A stretch of 64,000 bases of DNA from Planctomycetales bacterium (GTDB taxonomy: Bacteria; Planctomycetota; Planctomycetia; Planctomycetales; Planctomycetaceae). Below the pieces are notes generated by a model that was not told the origin of the DNA, searched no databases, and saw nothing but the letters and a program-made list of their open reading frames with translations. Made by a program: the position numbers and the translations under genes. The stretch lies in the NCBI GenBank assembly GCA_026400835.1, contig JAPLOA010000088.1, forward strand, positions 124,001 to 188,000, in the 5' to 3' direction. This document shows, in pieces, positions 26,109 to 44,568 of the stretch. Every line of letters begins with the position of its first letter. Position 1 is the stretch's first letter.

Positions 26109-26345
26109 ACCTTCTGTTGCTGAATCGTTGTCACGGAAGCCAACTCCAGGCAATTTCCTGACATGTTCTGCTCTGCGCTCGTCAACGATTCGTCGATTCC
26201 TGAATCCTGATTGTTGCGCTGTAATGTTCGCCGCTGCCTGAACAACTGCGGCATGAGCCTTGCTGATTAAAACTTTGTCCACGCGGCTGCGAGATTGCAG
26301 CGCGCTGCACAAATTCAGAGTTCGACTTTCCCGGAAAGGGAGCCC

Positions 26346-29300
26346 GTGTCGACAATTGCCGCCGCCGATATCCCGGTCAATGAGACTCCGCCTGAGTTGG
26401 TCTGTATTCGCGAACAGCTTCTCGCTATCGCCGAACTGCTGCCTCTGCAGGGGCCGATTACCGCGTTTGCGTTTCTGAACCCTTTGCAGGGAATGGAAGA
26501 TCAGCCATTCGTCGAAGCCCTGGGACAGGTCTCTCAGATTTACGGTTGCGAGCCTTTTCTGTCCGAGACTCGCTATCGTCAGAAAATGGCGCGAGGCCGA
26601 ATCACGGTCGACGATCTGCGCGAGATACTGCGAGAGGAGAATCCCGGGGAAGCAGATGTTCGCATCGGCGGAATCGTCGGCCTGATTGATCTGCGTTTGA
26701 GCATGTTGCAACACTCGGTAACACCGGGCAATCAGAACGAACTGCGTTGGACGATTGCTGAATCCGATGCGCTAAGGCGGTTTCGGACGGAGATGACTCA
26801 CGAGGTTCGCGACCGTCTGCTGGAACAGACGCAGCACTGGATTATGCGTGACCTGAGATCACCGGGTGAGCCGAGCCCGACAACCGATCATCCGGAAATC
26901 GCCGGTATCGTTCAGGAAGTTGTTTCAAATTTTGGCAGAAGCAACATCGAACGATGGTCAGACGAAACGTGGGAGCAGGTTTCGCTCGACTTACTCTGGA
27001 AGATTATTCAACAGCGAATCAGCACCACGCCAGCTCCTCGCAGAACCATGCACCGGGAAGTCCGACATCGTGACCTGCTGCTGGACGTGATCCGTGAAGA
27101 CACCGACATCCTTGTGCATGAAGTTCTGATCCGTTTCTGTGCCGCCTATCTGGATCAGGGTTATGCACAGTGGAGACTTCCAGATCGTGATGCCGGGTTT
27201 CTCGCATCATTCTGTACGCTGCTTCGGTCTGGCGGGTTTGGAAATCGACGCTGGATGCGATCGTTGGCTTCTGAGCTGGAGAGATTACAGGCCGGCAGTA
27301 TTACTCCCTTGCAGTCCATCGCCGATTCTCTCCGCCAACTCGGAGTGGAAGATGGCGAGCGGAATGAGTTTCTTCGCAATTCCTTGCTGGCGTTGCGAGG
27401 CTGGGCTGGCATGATCTGGCAGACCGAAATCCGTCCGGATCGCGTGTATCGTTATTCGCCGCCGGGAACGCTGATCGAATTTGTCGCCGTCAGACTTCTG
27501 TTGGATCGTCTTGCTGCAGCAAGTGTTTCCAGAGAGGTGATCGACTTCCGCAGACCGTTGAACGAACTCCGCGCGTCTTTGCGAGCATCTCTGCATGCGG
27601 CGAATGGAAATTCGACGAACGATCAGAGAGCCTACCAGATGCTTCAACTGGCTCAGATTCATGGATGGTCATCTCAAACTCTCGCGGAATTATCGCAGGC
27701 TAAATGGACAGAATTGATCGCGGAGGTTGATCGCTTCTCCAGCTTTGAACGCCGCCGAGTTTTCCATTTCGCGTTCGAACGTCAACTGGTTCACAGAGCA
27801 CTGGACGCAGTTTCAATTCGAGTGGCACAGCCGCCGACGAAGCCCGAGACACCTCAACTACAGATTGTGACCTGCATTGATACCCGGGAAGAATCCTTCC
27901 GGCGACATCTGGAGGAAGTGGCCCCGGACGTAGAAACGTTTGGCAATGCCGGGTTCTTCTGCGTGCCGATGTATTATCGCGGTGCGGCAGAAGCACACTT
28001 TACCGCGCTTTGTCCCATCGTGGTGATGCCGAAAAACTGGATCGTGGAAGACGTCGTTTACGCTCTGGAAGATTCCCATCGTCAGCGAGCAACCGCGCGA
28101 CGCCTGCTGGGAAGTGCGTCGCATCATTTCGACGCGGGGACTCGACGTTCGCTCAGCGGGGCTGTCCTGACGGCGCTTCTGGGCCCCCTGGCCACGGTAC
28201 CTTTGCTGGGGCGAATTCTGTTTCCACGATTCGCGGCAAAAATGCACCGAACGGCTCGACGCTTCGTCGCACCACCCGCGGTCACTCGACTACGTTTGGA
28301 GCGAGCGGAAGGAGCTCCTGCCGGTCCGGATGATGAGGGAATCGGCTTCACACTTTCAGAAATGGTCAACATCTCTGAACGATCTCTGCGAGACATCGGG
28401 CTGATCTCAAATTTTGCTCGACTGGTTATGTTTCTGGGTCATGGTTCCAACTGCCTCAATAATCCTCACGAGTCGGCCTATCACTGCGGTGCCTGTTCCG
28501 GCAGCGCGGGGGGCGCGAATGCGCGAGCACTGGCAGCAATGCTGAACGATGTTCGCGTGCGTCGACAATTGAAGGAACGAGGACTGGAGATCCCGGAAGA
28601 GACTTACTTCATCGGCGGATTGCACAACACAGGCTCGGAAGAGATAACCTTCTTCGACCTCGAACTGCTGCCAACATCTCATGTCCGATCATTGCGACTG
28701 GCGCGAGATTTGTTTAGCCGGGTTGCCGAACGGAATGCTCACGAGCGATGTCGACGCTTTGAATCAGCACCACTGGATCTGACGGCTTCTGAAGCGTTGT
28801 TGCATGTTCAGGAACGAACAGAAGATCTTGCACAAACTCGGCCGGAGTATGGAAACTGCACGAACGCCATGTGTTTTGTTGGCCGTCGCAGTCGTATTCG
28901 AGGATTGTATCTGGATCGGCGATCGTTCCTGATGTCGTATGACAAATCGCAGGATACGCCCGCCAACATGATCCTGGCTCGAATTCTGGGTGCCGTGATC
29001 CCGGTCTGTGAAGGCATCAATATGCTTTACACACTGTCAGCCATTGACAATCGCGGCTGGGGCTCGGGCACCAAGCTTCCGCACAATGTGACGTCGCTGC
29101 TGGGAGTAATGGACGGAGCGGCCAGTGATTTGCGTCCCGGACTCCCGTGGCAGGGTGTTGACATCCATGAACCCGTGCGACTGCTGTTTGTAGTCGAGAC
29201 GACTCCGGAAGCCATGCTGCAGATTATGGCCGATAATCCCACGGTGGGTCGCATCTGTCGCAACGGCTGGGCACAGTTGGCTGTGCTTGATCCGGACTCA

Positions 29301-29465
29301 TCGAGAATCCAGCGATTCATTGGCGGAAAGTTCGAAGACTACTCACCAACATCAACCGAACTGGCGTCTGCTGATTCATCACTCGAGTGGTATCGCGGTT
29401 GGCGCGACCATCTGAACTTCGCGCTGATTCGAACTACTGGAGGAGTTCCGGCTGCTTCTTCGTAG
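26346..29465 (+). CDS. dabA: inorganic carbon transporter subunit DabA (DUF2309)
   Basis: A 1040-residue protein. GTG 26346 is chosen since AAAGGGAG precedes it closely; a TTG start at 26295 is in frame but poorer. DabA is a cytoplasmic, beta-carbonic-anhydrase-like zinc protein that, with the proton-channel subunit DabB, traps CO2 as bicarbonate. The zinc-site residues known in Halothiobacillus DabA (C351, D353, H524, C539) are all found: C510 and D512 in VTCIDTRE, H699 in FLGHGSN and C714 in YHCGACSG, with the same 2- and 15-residue spacings. It is about 200 residues longer than the Halothiobacillus protein, mostly at the N-terminus. It is followed by two NuoL/NuoM-like genes and a SulP transporter on the same strand. 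Confidence 0.92.
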   Translation: MSTIAAADIPVNETPPELVCIREQLLAIAELLPLQGPITAFAFLNPLQGMEDQPFVEALGQVSQIYGCEPFLSETRYRQKMARGRITVDDLREILREENPGEADVRIGGIVGLIDLRLSMLQHSVTPGNQNELRWTIAESDALRRFRTEMTHEVRDRLLEQTQHWIMRDLRSPGEPSPTTDHPEIAGIVQEVVSNFGRSNIERWSDETWEQVSLDLLWKIIQQRISTTPAPRRTMHREVRHRDLLLDVIREDTDILVHEVLIRFCAAYLDQGYAQWRLPDRDAGFLASFCTLLRSGGFGNRRWMRSLASELERLQAGSITPLQSIADSLRQLGVEDGERNEFLRNSLLALRGWAGMIWQTEIRPDRVYRYSPPGTLIEFVAVRLLLDRLAAASVSREVIDFRRPLNELRASLRASLHAANGNSTNDQRAYQMLQLAQIHGWSSQTLAELSQAKWTELIAEVDRFSSFERRRVFHFAFERQLVHRALDAVSIRVAQPPTKPETPQLQIVTCIDTREESFRRHLEEVAPDVETFGNAGFFCVPMYYRGAAEAHFTALCPIVVMPKNWIVEDVVYALEDSHRQRATARRLLGSASHHFDAGTRRSLSGAVLTALLGPLATVPLLGRILFPRFAAKMHRTARRFVAPPAVTRLRLERAEGAPAGPDDEGIGFTLSEMVNISERSLRDIGLISNFARLVMFLGHGSNCLNNPHESAYHCGACSGSAGGANARALAAMLNDVRVRRQLKERGLEIPEETYFIGGLHNTGSEEITFFDLELLPTSHVRSLRLARDLFSRVAERNAHERCRRFESAPLDLTASEALLHVQERTEDLAQTRPEYGNCTNAMCFVGRRSRIRGLYLDRRSFLMSYDKSQDTPANMILARILGAVIPVCEGINMLYTLSAIDNRGWGSGTKLPHNVTSLLGVMDGAASDLRPGLPWQGVDIHEPVRLLFVVETTPEAMLQIMADNPTVGRICRNGWAQLAVLDPDSSRIQRFIGGKFEDYSPTSTELASADSSLEWYRGWRDHLNFALIRTTGGVPAASS

Positions 29466-29568
29466 ATGACACTCCGTCCTTCCTTCCTGAATGGCAGGTT
29501 TCGAACTCACACTTTCGCGACTTGCCGCTGACTGATTTTTCAGAACACATCACTTGCTGCCTACCCTC

Positions 29569-31164
29569 ATGCTCACAATTGCCGGAATTATTGTTGTTGC
29601 CGCTCCGTTGCTGCTGCTGGCTGTTTTTGGAATAGCGACGCTGCTTCGCATATCGCTGACAGAACGAAACATGGCCAGATTCACCGAGGCATCGACGGTC
29701 CTTGGTCTGATCTCGGCTTTGTTCATTCTGGCCGTTATGCTGGCGACCAACGAACGCAATGTCTCTGTGGTGCTTGGTGACTGGGTCAGGATCTCCGGAT
29801 CTCACGCCCATGACCTGTCAGGGCGCGAAGAGCAACATGACCACGAGGCCAGGCCCTTAGAGCACCCGTCAGAAAAGACGATGCCGGAAGACAAAGGATC
29901 TGACGCCGGGGCAGTCATAAAGAGCGTCAATGAAAATGGAGCGACTGAAAAAGAAGTCGCTGAACAAGAGGCTGCAGAAGAAGCAGCAGAAAATGAAGTG
30001 GCTCATGCTCCTGTCAGGGACGAGGAATCTCATTCAGATCATTTCCACTTTCGTCTGAAGTTCGTGTTCGATCGTCTCAGCGTTCCGTTTGTCATCATGA
30101 CGTTTGTGTTGTGCGGAGTCATCGCGGCGTTTGCCAGTCGTTACCTGCATCGCGACGAAGGCTTTCATCGATTCTTTATTTACTTCTCGTTCTTTCAGTT
30201 GGGCATGATCCTTTCATCTGTTGCCGGCACGATTGAAACTTTGTTCTTTGGCTGGGAGTTGGTTGGACTTTCCTCCGCATTGCTGGTCGCATTCTTTCAT
30301 GATCGACCGGCCCCGGTGGCTAATGGCCTGCGAGTTTGGGCGGTCTATCGCGTCGCCGATGCGGCCTTTCTTGTCGCCGCATTGACCCTGCACCATCTCT
30401 CCGGGTCCGGAGACTTTGACGGCATCGCCGGTCAGGGCGACTGGCCGAACGGGACAGCTGTTCTGTCTGAAGGCTCAGCACTCTTCGTCGGTTGCCTGCT
30501 GCTGTTTGCTGCAGCCGGAAAGTCGGCACTTGTACCATTCTCCGGATGGCTGCCCAGAGCCATGGAAGGTCCCACACCCAGCAGCGCTGTTTTTTACGGT
30601 GCGCTGTCGGTGCATCTTGGGGCATTCCTGTTGCTGCGAGTCAGCTCGCTGCTGGATGAATCGCTGACGCTGCGCATCCTTGTCATCCTGCTGGGATTGA
30701 TCACGATGATTTATGCCACGATGGTGGCTCGCGTGCAGACAGACATCAAAAGCAGCCTGGCGTTTTCGTCGTTAACACAAGTCAGCATCATCGTCGTCGA
30801 GATCGGCTTTGGGCTGCGTTACATTCCGTTGATTCATATCATTGGCCATGCGTGCCTGAGAACACTGCAACTGATTCGCGCTCCATCTTTGTTGCGGGAC
30901 TATAACTCGATGATCAATGCCATTGGAGCCTATCTGCCGGAAGCACGAGCAGGCAATGTGTCTCCCACGATGCGTTCGCGACTCTATCGATTCGCGTTTG
31001 ATCGCGGAAATCTCGACTCTCTGCTGGATGAATACGTCGTCCGACCATTCGTTCTGGTTTTCAGCTGGTCTGACCGGATGGAGCATCGCTGGACAACCTG
31101 GTTGTCGGGTCAATCAAAGAGCACTGACGACAGCGCGAATGAAAAAGCAGGAGCAGACGTATGA
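29569..31164 (+). CDS. dabB: DabB-like proton-conducting membrane subunit (NuoL family)
   Basis: A 531-residue polytopic protein from ATG 29569 (a TTG five codons upstream is possible). It belongs to the NuoL/MrpA/DabB antiporter family: [14 protein letters not shown] carries the TM5 Glu and [24 protein letters not shown] the TM7 Lys that form the ion path in complex I subunits. [15 protein letters not shown] is the conserved helix 8 region. DabB couples cation (proton) flow to DabA. Between the second and third helices (about residues 78-158) lies a hydrophilic insert rich in Glu, Ala and His that I do not see in family members. Its stop overlaps the next gene's ATG by ATGA, so the two are translationally coupled. 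Confidence 0.85.
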
Positions 31165-32726
31165 TTCCCGAACTTCACTTTCCATGGCTTGAATGTTCGA
31201 TTTTACTGCCGCTTTTGGGGGCGGTCGCCTGTGGTTTGTTGCGAGACCCCGTCAGGTCGCAAAGAGTAGCCGTGATCTGCGGTGTGTTGACCCTGTTCTG
31301 CACGACCGGAGAATGGCTCGACTTTGCCCTGATCGGATCGTTTGAAGCTCACGACCACTGGGACGTTGTACAATGGTTCTTTCGCAAAGATATCTTTGTG
31401 ATTGATGAACTGAGTGCACCGTTGCTGCCTCTGACCTCGTTGTTGTATCTGATGACGATGGTCTCCACGTTAAGGACCAAGCTGGGACGGTTTTCTTTTG
31501 GACTGACTCTGGCCTCCGAAGCCATTGCTCTGGGAACACTCAGTTGTCACAGTCCATGGGGAATCATTCTGCTGATGTCACTGAGTGTAGTTCCGCCGTG
31601 GCTGGAGCTTTATCGCCGGGGAGCCTCAACGCGAGTATTCTCGATTCATATGGGATTGAGTGTGATCCTGCTTGTGATTGGCTGGAGTCTGGTCGATTTC
31701 ACAGGCGATCAGCCTCGCGCCTCCCTGCTCTCGGCATCACTTTTGACGCTCGCCGTACTACTGCGTGCCGGAGCTTGTCCTTTACATCCCTGGATGGCAG
31801 ATCTTTTTGAGCACGCAACATTGGGCACAGCGTTGCTGTTTGTGGCACCGATGACCGGAGCGTACGCGGTCATGCATTTAGTTTTTCCAGTGGCTCCTGC
31901 CTGGGCGATGCAGAGTATTGCGGTGTTGTCACTGACCACTGCCGTTTATGCTGCCGGTATGGCGACGATTCAGACCGACGCCCGACGATTCTTTTGCTTT
32001 CTCTTCCTCAGCCATTCCTCGCTGGTTCTTTCGGGCCTTGAGATTGTCACCACGATTGGACTCACCGGAGCGTTGTGCGTATGGATCTCTGTGGGACTGT
32101 CACTGGGCGGTTTCGGCTTGACACTGCGTTCCATGGAGTCACGAATCGGACGAATTTCACTCAAACGATACCATGGGATGTATGAGCACACGCCAACTTT
32201 GGCAGGTTTGTTTTTGTTGACCGGACTGGCCTCAATCGGCTTTCCCGGCACCATCGGATTCATCGGAATGGAACTGCTGGTAGAAGGAGCTGTTGACGTT
32301 TACCCGTTGGTAGGTTTGGCGGTCGTTGTGGCAGCGGCATTAAACAGCATCGCAATTCTGCGAGCTTATTTCAGGATCTTCACCGGTCGAAAATTCGAGA
32401 CCTCTGTCATGCTACGTTCGCGTCCTTCGGAACGTTTTGCTGTTACCGTTCTGACCATTCTGGTTCTGGGAGGAGGTCTTTGGCCGCAACCAGGCGTTGC
32501 CTCAAGGCACCATGCTGCAGAAGCATTAATGAAGCTTCGTCGTCCTCATGAAGAAGTCGCACCTCCGGTCATTGAACCGCAGGATGAGGAAGCTGAAGAC
32601 GAAGTCCTGCCAGCAGAAACCGCGAAGCAGCATGCAGAGAATCAGAATCAGCCAACGACACCGCAAAGAACACCAACAGAGTTGAGGGATCAGGTCGCTT
32701 TGATCCAGGTCCGGGGCGATCCGTAA
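31161..32726 (+). CDS. second NuoL/NuoM-like membrane subunit of the Dab cluster
   Basis: A 521-residue polytopic protein of the same antiporter superfamily, overlapping the previous gene by four bases. The TM7 region reads [20 protein letters not shown], aligning with the KSAxxPFHxWLPDAHExP signature but with Arg in place of the Lys; the TM5 region around [18 protein letters not shown] lacks the Glu found in NuoM and in the preceding subunit. The C-terminal ~70 residues form a Glu-rich, hydrophilic tail. A non-pumping or structural partner for DabB, or a heterodimeric channel half, is a reasonable guess. Coupling with dabB and position between DabA and SulP tie it to inorganic carbon transport. 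Confidence 0.75.
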
Positions 32727-32901: not shown

Positions 32902-34896
32902 ATGAGTCAGGAAAATCGTATCCCCCGTGGCAACGCCGACGGGTTTGTCAGATACCTCAAGAACGACATGATCTCAGGATTACTTGTCTTCTTGATCGCT
33001 CTTCCGCTTTGCGTTGGCATCGCGCTGGCGTCCGGATTTCCTCCGTTGGCCGGCATCTTTACCGCCATTGCAGGAGCGATTGTCACGACGTTTATCAGTA
33101 ACTCCGAGATGACGATCAAGGGTCCGGCGGCAGGGTTGATCGTAATTGTGTTGGGATGCGTGGAAGACTTCGGTGGCAATGGGATGTCTGGCGGTTGGTC
33201 CGACCAGGACATGTTCGCCTACAAGGCAGCTTTGGCAGTCGGAGTTGTTGCAGCGATCTTTCAGATTCTGTTTGGGTTGTTTCGAGCCGGGATTCTCGGT
33301 GAGTTTTTCCCGGGAACCGTTGTCCATGGGATGCTGGCGGCTATCGGCGTCATAATTATTGCCAAGCAGGTACCGGTTGCCCTCGGGATCACAGAAGCCA
33401 AAGGCGGTCCGCTGTCACTGTTGAAGCAGATTCCCGAATTCGTGATGCACGCAAATCCGGCGATCGCCCTGATCGGCCTGATCAGTCTGCTGATTATGTT
33501 TCTGTGGCCGATAGTTCGAAGTCGTTTCAGTGTATTGAAACCCATTCCATCGCACTTGATCGTGCTTCTGGTTGCCGTTCCACTGGGAATGTATCTGGAG
33601 CTGACATCGGCTCATGAGTACCAGATGTTCAGCCAGGAATACAAACTGGGTGAACAGTATCTCGTCAAAATGCCGGGCCGTATCTTCGGCATGTTTGATG
33701 AAATTCAGTCCCCAAATTTTTCGGTGCTGAATCAGTTCAAGGCGTGGAAGTGGATCCTGATGTTCTTCATGATCGGAAGTCTTGAATCTTTGCTGAGTGC
33801 GAAAGCGGTTGACCTGCTGGACCCATGGAAACGCAAGACCAACATGAACCGGGATATGCTGGCAGTGGGAGTTGCGAATCTGGGAGCGGCGATGGTCGGC
33901 GGACTCCCCATGATCTCAGAAATTGTGCGCAGCAAGTCGAACATTGACAACGGTGCGAGAACACGATTTGCCAACATGTGGCACGGGATCTTTCTGCTGT
34001 TGTGTGTGGGGCTGATTCCCACAATCCTGCACCGCATTCCGCTCGCGGCTCTGGCAGCGATGCTGGTCTATACCGGAACAAGACTTGCGCATCCGAATGA
34101 ATTCCGAAACGTTTACCGCATCGGCAAAGAACAACTTCTGATCTTCGTCGTGACGCTGGTGGTCGTGCTGGCGACAGACCTCCTGATTGGCGTTGCGGCG
34201 GGTATCATCCTGAAGATGTTCCTGCACGTGGCGAACGGCGTTCCACTTCGATCGTTCTTCAAAGCGTATCTGGATGTTGAAGATGTGGATGAAAACACGA
34301 GCCGGATTATCGCCCGGGAATCCGCCATCTTCAGTAACTGGATTCCTTTCAAACGCCAGATTGAGGACATTGGTCTGGTCCAGAAGCGAAATCTGATCGT
34401 CGACCTTTCCGGGGCTACGCTCGTTGATGCCAGTGTGATGGAAAAACTTGAAGAACTCGTTCACGACTTCGAACAGGTCGGTCTCAAGCTTGAACTGAAG
34501 GGGCTGGATGAGCTGAGGGCACTGTCGCCGAACGTTCACTCGGCAAGAATACGAGGTCTTACTCCGGTTCGCAGAATGACGTTGGTCACAGACCCCGAAC
34601 TAGCTGCAAGATTGGCAAAGGAGTTCGTCCAGATGGGGGCAACGGGTTACACCGAAACGCCTTGCTTCGGCGTCGGTCGGCGGCATGTCGACTCTGATGT
34701 GATTATCCCTCAGGCGCAGACTCGACTGGAGATCATTCTCCCGTTCGAAACCTGTGAGCATGTTGTTGAGTACCTTCGGACGAGTATCATGCCTATCAAT
34801 CACATAACCGTGTGTATTGAAACGGTGGAAGTCGCACGAATTACGTCATTCGTTTCCACAGCTGAGATCGGCATGATGCAAAAGTCCGGACATTAG
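32902..34896 (+). CDS. SulP family anion (probable bicarbonate) transporter with STAS and C-terminal PII-like domain
   Basis: A 664-residue membrane protein. Residues ~20-440 are the SulP transmembrane core (opening [20 protein letters not shown], then [16 protein letters not shown] and [23 protein letters not shown]). Residues ~455-545 are a STAS domain ([22 protein letters not shown]). After this, residues ~555-650 show the PII/PII-like ferredoxin-type fold: [35 protein letters not shown] (the beta2/T-loop entry), [10 protein letters not shown] and [15 protein letters not shown]-like proteins such as SbtB and CPII sense adenine nucleotides and bicarbonate and control bicarbonate uptake; here the sensor seems fused to its transporter. 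It lies 175 bases after the second Dab membrane subunit, same strand. SulP proteins of the BicA type import bicarbonate with sodium; sulfate is an alternative substrate. Confidence 0.85.
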
Positions 34897-35077: not shown

Positions 35078-35106
35078 GCTGGCATTCGGCCGAATGCCAG
35101 CTTTTT
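35078..35106 (+). terminator. probable intrinsic terminator after the Dab/SulP cluster
   Basis: A perfect palindrome, gctggcattcgg / ccgaatgccagc (35078-35101), followed at once by five T (35102-35106). It is 180 bases past the SulP stop, so it would end a long 3' untranslated region, and it is the first good terminator in this direction after dabA. Confidence 0.7.
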
Positions 35107-36668: not shown

Positions 36669-39600
36669 ATGTCCGTTACGGGTGCGATTGATGAGAAGAG
36701 TGCTGAAGCTCTGCCAAGCCCTGAGCAAGCAGGTCTCGACGGTTATCGGGAGTCCACTTCAGCCCTGGAACGCTTCATCAACAGTTTTCTTCGCGAACAG
36801 AATATTCGCTGGATGCTGGTGATCGGGGCCGCCATTGTTTTCGGTTCTTCGCTGATGCTGGTTAGTCGAGAATTCTCCAGTTGGCCTGCGGGACTGAAGT
36901 ATCTTACAGTGCTGGCCTACACAGGAGTAATCTTCGCTGCTGCTGAAGTCGGTCGCGCTCGGCTGGGTTTGAAAGTGACCTATCGCGTCCTGCACGCGTT
37001 GACGTTGTTTCTGCTTCCGGTCTGCTTTCTGGCTCTGAACTGGGCCACTTCCTCAGGTCTTGCCGGCAGCCTGATGAATGTTGCCGAAGCGATCGCCTGG
37101 GGAGTTCCTGCCGCCGCGTTTCTGCTGTTTGCAGCCACTCGAATTTTCGACCATCAATTGCGAGGACGCCAGACCACATTTGTCGCGGCGTATGCGTTGC
37201 TAACAATCGCCGGTGCACTGCCGAAGTTGACTCATCCTCTCCTGTCATTCAGCGTTTCGCTGGTGCTGTGGTTTGTGATGAGTGCCGGAATGATCAAAGT
37301 GAATCGCCATATCTTCTGGCTGGCTGAAGAGAATCGCTGGCCTCGCATTTTTGCGTTCTTCCCCTCGCTGCTGCTGGGGATCATGTTTCTGATGCTCATG
37401 GTGACTCGAACCGCCGTCGGTGTGTCACTCGAATGGATTGGTTTCGGCTCTGTTCTTGTCTCCGCCACAATTCTGATGAACGCTCGCACGGTCGCGGATG
37501 TCTTCCGACAGCGAACAGGTGACCTCGTTCGTCCACTGCCGTGGTCTATCGTGTTGCCTGTGCTGGTCGGTTTGATCTGGATGGTCGCTGGACTCGGGCT
37601 TGCATTTGCAGGATTCCCAAAGACCTTCGCGCTGGTGCCAACATGTGCTTTGGCGACAGCAATGTTGTTTGTGACAGCTCGCGAAACTAATCATCGTGGA
37701 TTTGTCTGGGCCGCGTTGGTCACAGGGCTGATGACTTATCAGTTTTCGCCAACACTTTTCCGCGAAACTGCATTGTCCCTGAGAGACGCAGCGGCCGCCG
37801 GACTTCAGACCCCAAAACTTCCGCTGGCGTTTTATGGATTGACCTATCTTCCGTTCATTCTTGGAGCCGCAACACTCTACCGTGCCTTCCGGACTCGAGT
37901 TGCATCGCATCTGGTTGAGCCACTCAGGACGCTTTCATGTTGCCTGGCAGTCGCTCTGCAGGCTGCCGCGATTACGAATGCTCAGGCCATGTTTCTGGTT
38001 TCTGCGGTCAACATCGTCGCGTTCTACCTGTTGGGAGTCATCCTTCGCGATCGCAACATCGCAAGACTATCGCTGATCTCGCTGGGTTCAGCTGTCACGA
38101 TGCTGGTACCGTTCTTCACGGCAACCTCCAGCTCGACGCCAATGATCGTTCTGCTAATGACATCGGCATCGTCCATCGCATTGAGCCTGGGAATACTCGG
38201 CTGTGTGCTGGCGGTGACTCGCATTGCAGATCGGTTACTGAAGCTTGTGCCTGAGGGCGAATCATCTCACGGCGAAAAGTCCCGACTGGATCACCTGGGC
38301 GAATCACTGGGACTATTTCTGTCCGGTGGTTTGGCGCTCTACTGGATAGCTTTCGCTTTCCGGAGCATTGTTCATCCACAGATTTCTTCAGTATCGTGGA
38401 TTCATTGCCTGCTTCCGCTGACGACCTTTGTGGTTCACTCTATCCGCTATCGCAATCTCTTGAGCGGCTTTGTGTTCTGGGCTCTGCTGCTGACGGGGTT
38501 CGTGTTTGTTGCCTTTGAAGCAAACATCAGCGGGGCCATGATCAATTCCTGCCTCACACTGACATTGGGAATCGGGTCCATCGCCGGAACATTATGGTTC
38601 CGATCCGGACTGACGGCATCAACGCCGAGCATCGGCTTGTCGGCTCTCGTACCCATATCATTGCGAGAGTCAGAGCGGAGAACTACGACTCGCGACGCGT
38701 TATTGGTGCCATTTAACTGGCTCAGCATCGGTGTCATGTTTGCGATGACGGGGCTTCTGCATCTTCCGACTCTGATGTATCACAACCTGAATCACACCGC
38801 ACTGCCGATGCCGCTGGCTACGACGCTGACGATTGTGTGGCTGACGGTTGCGACATTGATGATTGGAAGTCGACCAGCCAGCGTCCTGAGTGCGCTCACG
38901 ATTCCCTTGCTGTGTTCGTCACTGGCCTTTACAGCGGGGCTTTTCCGTGATCCTTCCTGGACGCAGATCTTCGTCATCTGGGCCACGGCTTCATCGGCCT
39001 GCAGCATTCTCTTTTCGAGGATGCGAAGTCCCTCGACAGAGTTGGCCTTGATGACCAGTCGAGCGTGGATGTTGGGCACACTGGCTGTTTCCACAACCAG
39101 CTTTAATCCTGAACACCGCGTCATTCCTGTCGTCGTGTTGCCGGTTCTGTTCATGATCAACCGACATTCGCTGTCTGGTCTTCAACGAACGATCATTGCC
39201 ATCCTTGCCAATGTTCACTCTCTTCTGTTAGTTGGGGGAGTGATGGGATTGCAGGGAAATGTGACATCGCTGTTTTCATTCTACGACGAGAATGTTCTGC
39301 GAGTTTTCTTTCCGGTCCTTGTCGGCAGCGTGTTTGCCTTTGAATTGCTTCGCCCACGGCTGGAGCAGGAACTGGTAGAAGTCTGGCAAGTGGTTCTTCG
39401 CGTCTGCGGAGGAGTTGTGATTTTCGCAGCCATGGTCCGAGGACTGCCTTCGTTCCCGATGAGCGTCCTCACGGTGGGTACATTCCTTGCGGCGGCGGCA
39501 TTCGAACTTTGGAATGCAATCCGCCGTCAACAGGAATTCTACGTCTGGAACGCCTTTGCACTGATCGCTGGTTGTGGTGGCTGGATGATCGTCGAACGTC

Positions 39601-40382
39601 TGATTGTTCCCGGGACAGGGATGTCTCAGATTCTGCTGCTGGTCCTTTCCGCGATCACATTGACCGTTGCGGAGAAGTCCCGAGGCCATCAGCAAGCTGC
39701 GATCTTCATCCGACCGATGCGAATGATTGGTATCTCACTACCAATAGTGGTCTCGGTTCTCGCTCTGTTGCGAACGACGATGGCCGGGGCCGATGTGCGA
39801 GGCCTGCAGGCTCTGGCTGTCTTCGGTTGTGCGGCGATCTATTTCCATCAGTGGCTTTTGAGCCGACGACGACTGTTCCTGCTGCTTGCTGGTGCTGTCG
39901 TCAATCTGGCGTTTGTTCTGCTGTGGAGAAGTCTGCACTTCAGCGACCCTCAGTTCTATATGGTGCCGGTCGGGTTGTCGGTGCTGGGACTGATTGAAAT
40001 CCTGAAAAAAGAGCTGCCATCTTCGTCTCATGACCCGCTGCGATATTTCGGAGCACTCATCATTCTTGTCTCTCCGGTGTTCGATATCCTGAGCGGCAGC
40101 TGGGCTCACTTGTTGTCACTGCTGGTGTTGTCGACTCTTGTTGTGCTGCTTTCGATCGGGCTGCGATTGCGAGCCCTGATGTATACAGGGACCGCGTTTA
40201 TCCTTGCGGATCTGGCCGGAATGATCTTTCGAGCCACGGAAGACAGGATGTCTTTGCTATGGATCGGCGGCCTCGGTCTCGGCGTCGCCGTGATTGCTCT
40301 CGCCGCGATCTGCGAGAATCATCGCGATCGAGTTCTTGCTCGCATCCGCACTCTGTCTGCAGCGTTGGCAACATGGGAATGA
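36669..40382 (+). CDS. very large polytopic membrane protein, unknown function
   Basis: A 1237-residue protein made almost entirely of hydrophobic helices, roughly thirty by eye, after a 45-residue polar N-terminus ending INSFLREQNIRWMLVIGAAI. It resembles the planctomycete and DUF2157/DUF2339-like class of multi-span proteins in composition, but I cannot name the family securely. No soluble domain is evident; charged loops at about residues 515-535 and 650-680 interrupt the helices. It is followed after 117 bases by a PspA-like gene in the same direction, and both could belong to an envelope-stress or membrane-maintenance unit. Confidence 0.72.
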   Translation: MSVTGAIDEKSAEALPSPEQAGLDGYRESTSALERFINSFLREQNIRWMLVIGAAIVFGSSLMLVSREFSSWPAGLKYLTVLAYTGVIFAAAEVGRARLGLKVTYRVLHALTLFLLPVCFLALNWATSSGLAGSLMNVAEAIAWGVPAAAFLLFAATRIFDHQLRGRQTTFVAAYALLTIAGALPKLTHPLLSFSVSLVLWFVMSAGMIKVNRHIFWLAEENRWPRIFAFFPSLLLGIMFLMLMVTRTAVGVSLEWIGFGSVLVSATILMNARTVADVFRQRTGDLVRPLPWSIVLPVLVGLIWMVAGLGLAFAGFPKTFALVPTCALATAMLFVTARETNHRGFVWAALVTGLMTYQFSPTLFRETALSLRDAAAAGLQTPKLPLAFYGLTYLPFILGAATLYRAFRTRVASHLVEPLRTLSCCLAVALQAAAITNAQAMFLVSAVNIVAFYLLGVILRDRNIARLSLISLGSAVTMLVPFFTATSSSTPMIVLLMTSASSIALSLGILGCVLAVTRIADRLLKLVPEGESSHGEKSRLDHLGESLGLFLSGGLALYWIAFAFRSIVHPQISSVSWIHCLLPLTTFVVHSIRYRNLLSGFVFWALLLTGFVFVAFEANISGAMINSCLTLTLGIGSIAGTLWFRSGLTASTPSIGLSALVPISLRESERRTTTRDALLVPFNWLSIGVMFAMTGLLHLPTLMYHNLNHTALPMPLATTLTIVWLTVATLMIGSRPASVLSALTIPLLCSSLAFTAGLFRDPSWTQIFVIWATASSACSILFSRMRSPSTELALMTSRAWMLGTLAVSTTSFNPEHRVIPVVVLPVLFMINRHSLSGLQRTIIAILANVHSLLLVGGVMGLQGNVTSLFSFYDENVLRVFFPVLVGSVFAFELLRPRLEQELVEVWQVVLRVCGGVVIFAAMVRGLPSFPMSVLTVGTFLAAAAFELWNAIRRQQEFYVWNAFALIAGCGGWMIVERLIVPGTGMSQILLLVLSAITLTVAEKSRGHQQAAIFIRPMRMIGISLPIVVSVLALLRTTMAGADVRGLQALAVFGCAAIYFHQWLLSRRRLFLLLAGAVVNLAFVLLWRSLHFSDPQFYMVPVGLSVLGLIEILKKELPSSSHDPLRYFGALIILVSPVFDILSGSWAHLLSLLVLSTLVVLLSIGLRLRALMYTGTAFILADLAGMIFRATEDRMSLLWIGGLGLGVAVIALAAICENHRDRVLARIRTLSAALATWE

Positions 40383-41817: not shown

Positions 41818-44235
41818 CTACGCTGTCACGAGCCGCTGAGTCTCGCCCTGAATCAGGGAGAACTGCGTCAGACGGCAGAGATCCAGCAGTTCGTTGGCGG
41901 CCTGCATGATTCCGATCATGTCTTTGTCATGTTCCAGAGATTCCAGCAACTGCTCGGACACGTCGACCATGCTGTCGATCCCCGCCCGCTCAGCTGTCGT
42001 CAGAATTCTGGAGGTCAACGTTCGCAGTTCGCCGAGATCCTGATCATCCAATGCGGTGACCAGTCGCTCAATCTGCAAGCCGATGTCGAGGGCAATGTCT
42101 GTCGAAACGCCCGGCATTTCTGCACGTGTACCAGATCGCAGACGCACGGCTGAGATAAATCCTTCGACCAGTTCAGGGTCGAATTGAGTTCCTGCACATC
42201 GGCGCAGTTCTTCAAACGCTTCAGTGCGTGATTTGCGGCGGCGATAAACAGCGTCGGAAGTCATGGAATCAAAAGCGTCGGCAATCGCGAGTACTCGTGA
42301 AGCAACACTTGGTCGGCTTCCGACGGTGTTCAGTTCTTCCTGATTGCTGAGATCAAACCGGACGGAATACTGTTCGATGATCTCGGTGACAACATCTGAG
42401 CCAAACGAATTCTTCACCAGTTGCATGCTGACATAACGATTGCGTCGCATGATGGCCCACTCTTCGTCGGTCAGACGACCATGCTTCTGAAGGATCGCAT
42501 CCGGGACACCGATCTTTCCGATGTCGTGCATCAGGGCTGCGATTTCCAGGTTGTAGCATTCACGCATTGACAGCAAGCCCTCGGCCGTTGCTACGCAAAG
42601 GTCTGCCACACGTCGACTGTGAGCCGCTGTGGGCTGGTCACGATACGACATGGCGGACAACAATGCGGTGACGGCCTGGAAAGGAATCGTAACTGCCGCT
42701 TGTTTTCGTGGTTCTTTGCGAGCTGTCGCCGGTGTTTCACCAAGCTGTGAGATCTGCTTTTGTGCTTTGTCGAAACGAATGACCTGATTTCTGCCATTTC
42801 TCTTGGCAACGTACAGACACTTGTCAGCCTGATCGAGAAGATCCTGAGGTGAGTCCGCTTTCTGGGCAAAAGAAGAAACTCCAAGACTTGCAGTGACTTT
42901 TAATTCGCCTATCTGCAAAGCTTTAATTGCGAGACGAATGCGTTCGGCCCGCAGTTCTGCTTCGTCGAGACTTGTGTCCGGCATCAGCACAGAGAATTCC
43001 TCGCCACCGTAGCGACAGACGATGTCCGACTCCGCAACAGTCTTCATCACTACCGACGCTACTTTGCGCAGGACTTCATCGCCCATCGCATGGCCATGAT
43101 TGTCATTGATTGATTTGAAGTGGTCGATGTCGACCATCATTGCGGACAGCTCACCGCCCACCAACTTCTTTTGAGCCCACGTGGATTCAAAGTCTTTGAA
43201 GAAGCTGCGACGATTCACGCAGCCAGTCAGAGCATCACGAGTTGCCAGCCATTCCAGTTCCCTGTTCTGCTGGCGAACTTCTTCACTCGACTGCTTCAAT
43301 GAACTCAGAGCATCGCGAAGTTCTTTCTGCTTACGATCAAGCTCTGTGACGTCTTCAAAACTAGCGACAACGCCACGGCACTTCTGACGTTCATCGTGAA
43401 TGGGCACGGAACTGACCGAGAACGTTGTCTCTGTGCCGTTGACGCCGAGCTTCATAATCACACCACGCAATGACTGCCCGCTGGAAATGGTGGTTTGCCA
43501 GGGTTGTTCCGAAAGCGTGGTTTCGATCTGATGGCGAAATCCTATTTGATTCGCGTTCTTTCCGACCAGCATCTCAACCTCCTGTTGAACATGCTGAGCA
43601 AACGCGCTATTGGCAAGCACAATGCGCCCGTCGGTGTCAATGACGAGAAGACCTTCAGCGAGGGCGTCCAGCGCTTCACGAACTCGCGACGGAATCACCT
43701 GTGACGGATTCAACTGGCGAAGTACTCGCCGCAGATACAGCGAGAACGAAAAGAACAGGCCGACGCCCAGAAACAAAGAAAGTGAGAACTCGGGCCGCAT
43801 TATGTTGCCCAGAGGTCCTGCCGCTACTTCGAGAAACCGGACTTCCAATTGTCCCCAATGTTCACCTGATGTGGTAATAGGCACAATGAATTCACGTGAT
43901 GAATTTGGGACGGATCCGCTTGTTTCCCAAAGTGACTGATGTTCTCCGGAGGCAAACAGCAGTTCTCCGTTTTCGTCTGTTCGCACGGCCAGAGATTCGA
44001 CTTCCGGATTTCGCTGGCGAATCGCGTCAAACGTTTCCTGAATCTGCATCTCATTCATTCGCGGCGCAAGTGCCATGAAGCTGACGGCCGTGGCTTCGCA
44101 GAATGCAGATCGGTTTTTCTGTGCGGCGGTACCGACGTTTGGAATCAGTCCCAGCAGACCGGCAACCAGCAAAGCACTAATCGTGAGACTGACAAGTCCC
44201 AGAACGATTCGCATGCTTGAGGAGAGGCGGGGCAT
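41818..44235 (-). CDS. membrane diguanylate-cyclase/degenerate HD-GYP signalling protein
   Basis: An 805-residue protein from ATG 44235 (the frame extends to 44331). Layout: N-terminal transmembrane helix (MRIVLGLVSLTISALLVAG...), periplasmic sensor region, second helix near residue 160, PAS domain (~205-325: ALAEGLLVIDTDGRIVLANS), coiled coil, GGDEF domain with GGEEF at about 410-414, then an HD domain with HSRR and HDIGK near residue 569, and a helical C-terminal tail. The GGEEF site suggests diguanylate cyclase activity; the RxxD I-site is absent. In the HD half the HHExxDGxGYP motif is replaced (EIIEQYSVRFDLSNQEE), so phosphodiesterase activity is doubtful. The tail has HPt-like heptads but no His. 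Output is probably c-di-GMP synthesis. Confidence 0.85.
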   Translation of the reverse strand: MPRLSSSMRIVLGLVSLTISALLVAGLLGLIPNVGTAAQKNRSAFCEATAVSFMALAPRMNEMQIQETFDAIRQRNPEVESLAVRTDENGELLFASGEHQSLWETSGSVPNSSREFIVPITTSGEHWGQLEVRFLEVAAGPLGNIMRPEFSLSLFLGVGLFFSFSLYLRRVLRQLNPSQVIPSRVREALDALAEGLLVIDTDGRIVLANSAFAQHVQQEVEMLVGKNANQIGFRHQIETTLSEQPWQTTISSGQSLRGVIMKLGVNGTETTFSVSSVPIHDERQKCRGVVASFEDVTELDRKQKELRDALSSLKQSSEEVRQQNRELEWLATRDALTGCVNRRSFFKDFESTWAQKKLVGGELSAMMVDIDHFKSINDNHGHAMGDEVLRKVASVVMKTVAESDIVCRYGGEEFSVLMPDTSLDEAELRAERIRLAIKALQIGELKVTASLGVSSFAQKADSPQDLLDQADKCLYVAKRNGRNQVIRFDKAQKQISQLGETPATARKEPRKQAAVTIPFQAVTALLSAMSYRDQPTAAHSRRVADLCVATAEGLLSMRECYNLEIAALMHDIGKIGVPDAILQKHGRLTDEEWAIMRRNRYVSMQLVKNSFGSDVVTEIIEQYSVRFDLSNQEELNTVGSRPSVASRVLAIADAFDSMTSDAVYRRRKSRTEAFEELRRCAGTQFDPELVEGFISAVRLRSGTRAEMPGVSTDIALDIGLQIERLVTALDDQDLGELRTLTSRILTTAERAGIDSMVDVSEQLLESLEHDKDMIGIMQAANELLDLCRLTQFSLIQGETQRLVTA

Positions 44236-44568
44236 GAACCTGAACCAGTTAGTGAGGAATCCTGTTGAAAGCTTCTGAGGTGAGCATAGGTCACATTTTT
44301 CCGTTGGAAGTCTTTTGTTGCAGATACGCAACAGCGTTCGAAGATAACGAGGGGAGATTCCCCTGCATTATTCGGCAGGACTCACCCGTATCGCGGGGAA
44401 TCCTCTTCCAAATCAGGCCCTGCAATCCGCAAAAACGAATCACCGTGCACGATCGAATCGTTCTGCCAAACTTTGATCTGCCCCTGTTTGCGCTGAAGCT
44501 CGACTCAACGAGTCCGGCGCGGGATGCAGCGATTTTAAGTCTTCTGCCGTCCGCGAATTCGCGCGGAA

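Follow-up and report, generated by a model that had tools for sequence, protein, structure and literature searches.

Can a transporter of the dimeric SulP type carry, within its own chain, a sensor of the trimeric PII type? PII proteins are homotrimers with nucleotide bound between the subunits, BicA-type SulP proteins are dimers, and a single gene in a Planctomycetales bacterium joins the two folds. The gene lies in a stretch of 64,000 nucleotides (contig JAPLOA010000088.1, positions 124,001 to 188,000; hereafter the window), where an earlier sequence-only reading had proposed that it would be an intrinsically regulated bicarbonate importer located beside a DabA cluster.

Domain architecture of the fusion protein

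The gene (32902..34896, plus strand) is an intact, single open frame of 664 codons for amino acids, and the four protein strings quoted in support of the earlier reading begin at residues 558, 578, 607 and 635. A full-length copy, 96% identical, is present in another assembly (L035). The N-terminal part of the protein (about residues 15-445; 32944..34236, plus strand) is a SulP/SLC26 transmembrane transport domain: residues 19-418 match Sulfate_transp of Pfam (PF00916, 5.5e-59), and the domain aligns with SLC26-type chains of known structure, 6ki1 and 5da0 among them. It is followed by a STAS domain (about residues 455-541; 34264..34524, plus strand), for which the Pfam match (PF01740, residues 483-536) scores 21.4 bits, slightly under the cut-off of 22.6, and which is supported by the full SLC26-type chains 5da0 and 9iar, aligned by phmmer through residues 536-539 of the fusion. 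The combination characteristic of SulP/SLC26 proteins, Sulfate_transp with STAS, is therefore present, the STAS component being recognised by a sub-threshold score together with the chain alignment. With a P-II match (PF00543) above its cut-off at the C-terminus, the domain order SulP-STAS-PII stands as it was originally read. The AlphaFold2 model of the full-length fusion, with a pLDDT of 37.7, was set aside.

The fusion shares with BicA the succession of SulP transport domain and STAS, but differs from it at E295 (33784..33786, plus strand). In the phmmer alignment this residue stands opposite an Asp of BicA (6ki1) that we take to belong to the sodium site; 5da0, like the window protein, has Glu in place of the Asp. 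The score against the NCBIfam BicA equivalog is also far from its cut-off (130.7 vs 880 bits), and the two observations together indicate that the fusion is not a BicA orthologue. The cut-off of the NCBIfam sulP model TIGR00815 is likewise missed (175 vs 380 bits). To our knowledge, no PII domain has been found on BicA. The fusion is the only PF00916 match in the genome.

Identity and fold of the C-terminal domain

The C-terminal domain (about residues 556-646; 34567..34839, plus strand) is a real PII-like domain of the SbtB/TTHA0516 type. Residues 558-646 match P-II (PF00543) with 28.5 bits in the context of the whole protein, above the curated cut-off of 25, and the C-terminus on its own scores better still (32.7 bits, 1e-7); the isolated domain has no P-II match in NCBIfam. 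Among PDB sequences, phmmer returns TTHA0516 of Thermus thermophilus (2cz4, 1.1e-7) as the sole clear relative of the C-terminus, and 3dfe (0.027) and SbtB (0.05-0.2) as marginal ones. A profile built from 22 rows of fused domains reaches TTHA0516 at 4.3e-18, Cyanobium SbtB at 1.8e-6 and Synechocystis SbtB at about 0.001. The AlphaFold2 model of residues 549-655 (monomer, two-row alignment, pLDDT 74.3) displays the strand-helix-strand-strand-helix-strand succession in ferredoxin-like order, and Foldseek places TTHA0516 first among its matches (1.1e-7), followed by SbtB chains; GlnK and CutA chains are also matched, and CPII with ADP and bicarbonate appears at rank 50. The PII-like identity first read from the pattern of strands is thus borne out by profile matches above noise and by a ferredoxin-like PII core. 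TTHA0516, the best match in both sequence and structure, is a stand-alone chain, unlike the fused domain.

The domain carries a GxG motif of PII type, GVGRR (residues 590-594; 34669..34683, plus strand), which presumably forms the ligand loop. Next to it lies a short T-loop-like stretch (residues 595-606; 34684..34719, plus strand) that varies among relatives in the alignments and is nearly deleted in two of the fused domains (L053 and L107). The most conserved pair of the domain is R608-x-E610 (34723..34731, plus strand), with the Arg found in 38 of 39 fused domains and the Glu in all 39. The GDGK-type B-loop motif, a mark of canonical PII proteins (GlnB/GlnK), does not occur in the sequence of the fusion protein, nor does the C-terminal CGPxGC redox hairpin. 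This hairpin is conserved in some SbtB homologues (PMC8352866) and has no counterpart in the window domain.

Two further candidate sites were considered and rejected. A conserved C-terminal His as a metal site is present in many rows of the alignment and missing from many others. A redox switch of C588 and C638 finds C588 in 31/39 fused rows but also in 8/22 free rows, and C638 missing in 10/39 fused rows, one of these at a contig end.

The inorganic-carbon gene cluster

Upstream of the fusion and on the same strand lies a gene for DabA, a subunit of the inorganic-carbon complex (26295..29465, plus strand; coordinates are those of the longest frame, and the true start may lie further in). It matches PF10070 with 739 bits (8.6e-222), which confirms the position beside a DabA cluster, and displays the C-x-D-x-R and H-14-C zinc-site spacing of DabA2, whose site consists of Cys351, Asp353, Arg355, His524 and Cys539 (PMC13144422). 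A DabB-type, NuoL-like membrane subunit (29554..31164, plus strand; PF00361, PF00662) comes next. The solved DAB2 complex consists of DabA2 and DabB2 (PMC13144422); in the window a second, NuoM-like membrane subunit (31161..32726, plus strand; PF00361 and synteny) sits between DabB and the SulP fusion, an arrangement conserved in the clusters of relatives. Downstream of the fusion, a terminator-like hairpin followed by a T run (35078..35101, plus strand), found by pattern match, may mark the end of an operon.

The cluster is a recurrent feature of the fusion. Excluding two loci at contig ends (L063 and L068), 37 of the 39 fused loci are informative for neighbourhood, and DAB genes adjoin the fusion in 29 of them. 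In 19 of the 29, DabA, DabB, the NuoM-like gene and the SulP-PII gene all run in one direction (this count includes L043, where a contig end cuts DabA); seven have a partial cluster, six of these at contig ends and one (L054) with frames broken both in SulP and in its DAB neighbours; the remaining three follow another order, divergent in L100 and L101 and with SulP-PII first in L104. No DAB gene was found within the stretch fetched at 8/37 informative loci. Among these eight, L124 is preceded by a pair of putative carbonic anhydrases, and L115 has a sodium/proton exchanger directly downstream.

At the level of genomes, DabA is present in 61 of 392 genomes of the phylum. Of these, 16 are among the 20 genomes that have the fusion and 45 among the 372 that lack it (Fisher p 6e-11, with kinship not corrected for; the fusion and DabA counts are treated as one 392-genome sample, for which the listed genomes agree). 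Six close SulP-STAS homologues have no PII domain, and no PII-like open reading frame was found in the stretches around them. Two of the six (L059 and L061) still have DAB genes nearby, so the DAB link is independent of the PII domain, and neither transport nor the link appears to need it.

Distribution and descent of the fusion

The sequence-only reading had proposed looking for the same fusion in related planctomycetes, and the fused frame was found in 24 of 59 genomes of relatives, the window's own included. Across the phylum, the fused-domain profile matched 45/392 genomes, in 20 of which the match lies inside an open frame of at least 600 amino acids that also holds SulP; two more genomes (G209 and G293) have the match in long frames that are not SulP, and a 64-residue match in G301 was left unclassed. 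At least six family labels are represented among the genomes with the fusion (f1, f5, f8, f26, f49, f98). Altogether, 40 genomes have the fusion (39 loci plus G015, L006/L035), which rules out a chance match or an artefact of the reading frame.

A contig search with the window's own domain returned two loci, both in one assembly. Among plasmids, the PII domain alone had no match at E 0.01. The whole protein matched 1917 plasmid records; the 20 listed matches end at or before residue 569, and the best of those listed, from Methylomagnum (44.5%), is a SulP without the fusion that neighbours amo genes. Viral contigs yielded one pattern match, unconfirmed.

In a SulP tree of 47 rows, the 38 fused rows do not form one clean clade (4 changes): L104 stands apart, and L057 and L058 fall inside the fused rows yet have no domain. 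Three distant rows with very long branches were left uninterpreted. This topology is consistent with an old fusion followed by some losses, and possibly with a second gain in L104. In a PII tree of 60 rows, a single branch separates fused from free domains (SH-aLRT 96), a split that is compatible with a single origin of the fusion, but the rows had been gathered by means of the fused-domain profile.

An assembly that has a full copy of the fusion also carries a further C-terminal fragment of it at a contig end (L067, 5-175; contig C91 of G015), with 81% identity to the window's; the fragment represents either a second copy or a mixed assembly. Further downstream in the window (36669-40382) a protein of 1237 amino acids, judged by eye to be a membrane protein and without a Pfam match, is followed by a PspA/IM30 gene, and both are 92-96% identical in L067. 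The minus strand at 41818-44331 encodes a PAS-GGDEF-HD domain protein.

Free PII-like relatives and the genomic setting

The fused-domain profile also matched 22 free PII-like loci. In 11 of these the neighbouring gene, picked by eye as SbtA-like, was tested against Pfam, and all 11 neighbours proved to be SbtA (PF05982); the free PII-like genes accordingly look SbtB-like. The window's own genome includes one such set on another contig (L065 8586-10751, contig C103), where genes for SbtA, a P-II protein and a beta-carbonic anhydrase adjoin one another. The genome thus has an SbtA with its own P-II gene in addition to the SulP fusion, and a third, strong P-II match (107 bits). No RuBisCO match was found in this genome, in a search whose control detected RuBisCO in 5 of 14 genomes; any supply would therefore be of inorganic carbon outside the Calvin cycle.

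Other free loci show variations on the SbtA theme. SbtA proteins of about 600 amino acids, with an N-terminal extension of roughly 200 residues, lie beside a PII-like gene in L118 (7203-8996) and L122 (9269-11089), the former also with a beta-carbonic anhydrase. The free PII-like gene at L132 (9368-9685) has weakly NuoM-like and DabB-like open reading frames nearby, by eye a Mrp-type antiporter cluster.

Constraint on the domain and conservation of its loop

The PII-like domain is under purifying selection. Its dN/dS ranges from 0.03 to 0.21 in nine pairs, against 0.02-0.10 for the transport domain where computable. Five of the nine pairs have a dS above 1 in the PII domain, which leaves four reliable, unsaturated pairs; here the PII domain has values of 0.10-0.17 and the transport domain values of 0.02-0.10. 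The PII domain is hence constrained, less so than the transporter. Of the 39 fused domains, 28 retain the GxG motif (27 of them as GxGR) and 11 have lost it; all 22 free rows retain it. With losses of this extent, a sensor role cannot be assumed across the whole family.

The pattern of loss raises the alternative that the domain is an assembly or docking module with no ligand sensing, its role being to keep SulP oligomers intact or to anchor SulP to the DAB complex or a free SbtB. By the SulP tree, GxG was probably lost several times while R-x-E stayed; pairs without GxG still have dN/dS below 1 (0.17-0.21, with synonymous sites near saturation); and the linkage to DAB genes is strong, all of which speaks for a docking module. 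The clade of SulP proteins to which the window's copy belongs, on the other hand, keeps GxG in 11 of 11 rows and GxGR in 10, and we regard docking without sensing as doubtful, though worth weighing. Sensing is the reading we prefer for the window's copy: judging from the motif, the regulatory domain has probably kept its ligand site in this clade, and its use has probably changed in other lineages.

Probable substrate and proposed working

Gene context makes bicarbonate the most likely substrate, given the DAB linkage and, at one locus, the carbonic anhydrase genes. A transporter of sulfate or another anion, with the PII-like domain reporting the energy state and the DAB link serving charge or pH balance, is an unlikely alternative on the balance of the following. 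The fusion being the sole PF00916 match of its genome would suit such a role, as would the Glu shared with 5da0 at the position of the BicA Asp and the missed BicA and sulP cut-offs of NCBIfam; the repeated DAB linkage, the putative carbonic anhydrases at one locus and the pairing of the tested free PII-like relatives with SbtA speak against it. That the domain is a mere remnant and no longer has any role is highly improbable: six close relatives do without it, its motif is degenerate in 11/39 and it evolves faster than the transport domain, but dN/dS is 0.10-0.17 in the four unsaturated pairs and the domain has been kept over at least six families.

Our preferred reading is a self-regulated SulP carbon transporter within a DAB operon, whose PII module senses nucleotide or bicarbonate; as a whole we give this proposal an even chance. 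The domain order, the PII-like fold, the conserved cluster and the selection on the domain are computed results; substrate, ligand, direction of control and a single transcript are what we infer from them. The fusion gene would be the last of a DabA-DabB-NuoM-like-SulP cluster for dissolved inorganic carbon, probably one operon, and its SulP-STAS part an anion transporter, most likely for bicarbonate. An SbtB-like PII module would have joined the transporter chain in an ancestor within Planctomycetota. Beside the GVGRR loop the module may bind an adenine nucleotide, either alone or, like CPII, together with bicarbonate. By analogy with SbtB, binding may cause the STAS-PII tail to pack differently on the transport domain and thereby change the rate of anion uptake. 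Uptake would then be adjusted to the cell's energy and carbon status with no need of a separate regulator.

Comparison with known systems

The fused domain resembles SbtB in its PII-like fold, its inorganic-carbon setting and its GxG loop, and SbtB is among its best profile and structure matches. SbtB is a separate trimer acting on trimeric SbtA (PMC8352866), its T-loop enters SbtA, and the binding depends on adenine nucleotides (PMC8352866, PMC10117731). The window domain, in contrast, is covalently attached to SulP, and is not a separate gene next to SbtA. Alpha-carboxysome loci have separate PII/SbtB genes beside DUF2309 (DabA) and nuoL-like genes (PMC4633670), so that CPII and the carboxysome PII likewise are PII-like partners of DAB-type genes; these are separate genes, whereas the window's PII-like domain is part of a SulP chain, and its genome has no RuBisCO match. 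There are also SulP-carbonic anhydrase fusions, where a SulP of predicted bicarbonate specificity carries a covalent inorganic-carbon domain (PMC6458275), but there the domain is an enzyme and here it is PII-like. In AexB of Bacillus subtilis, a PII-like cap and a membrane transporter share one polypeptide; unlike the fusion, AexB is an aromatic amino acid exporter with five predicted membrane segments, modelled as a trimer (PMC13170310). The parts are therefore familiar. The earlier suspicion that the architecture is new to the literature agrees with our search: no description of a SulP-PII fusion was found among the open-access literature matches listed. The symmetry problem it poses merits experiment.

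Implications for PII control of transport

PII regulation is said to be confined to transporters that are able to form trimers (PMC10710835), and BicA is a homodimer (PMC8438413). Taken together, the two imply for the fusion either an assembly of mixed symmetry or a PII fold that acts without a trimer. Tentatively, we suggest that Planctomycetota have a class of SLC26-type transporters that regulate themselves: a PII-like sensor of three-fold symmetry would be mounted on a transporter of two-fold symmetry, beside DAB genes and without RuBisCO. Such proteins would either build a higher-order assembly, in which for instance two PII trimers link three transporter dimers, or have given up the trimer.

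If true, this would break the rule tying PII control to trimeric transporters, and would provide a bicarbonate transporter of SulP type that has its metabolite sensor built in and partners DAB without RuBisCO. A 2021 review gives SbtA as the only case in which a regulator protein had been found to control bicarbonate uptake (PMC8438413); if sensing holds, the planctomycete transporter would regulate itself. Residing in one chain, transport and sensing could be assayed together, and the fusion would offer a template from nature for the engineering of carbon uptake. It would also show directly whether PII control depends on a transporter that shares the three-fold symmetry.
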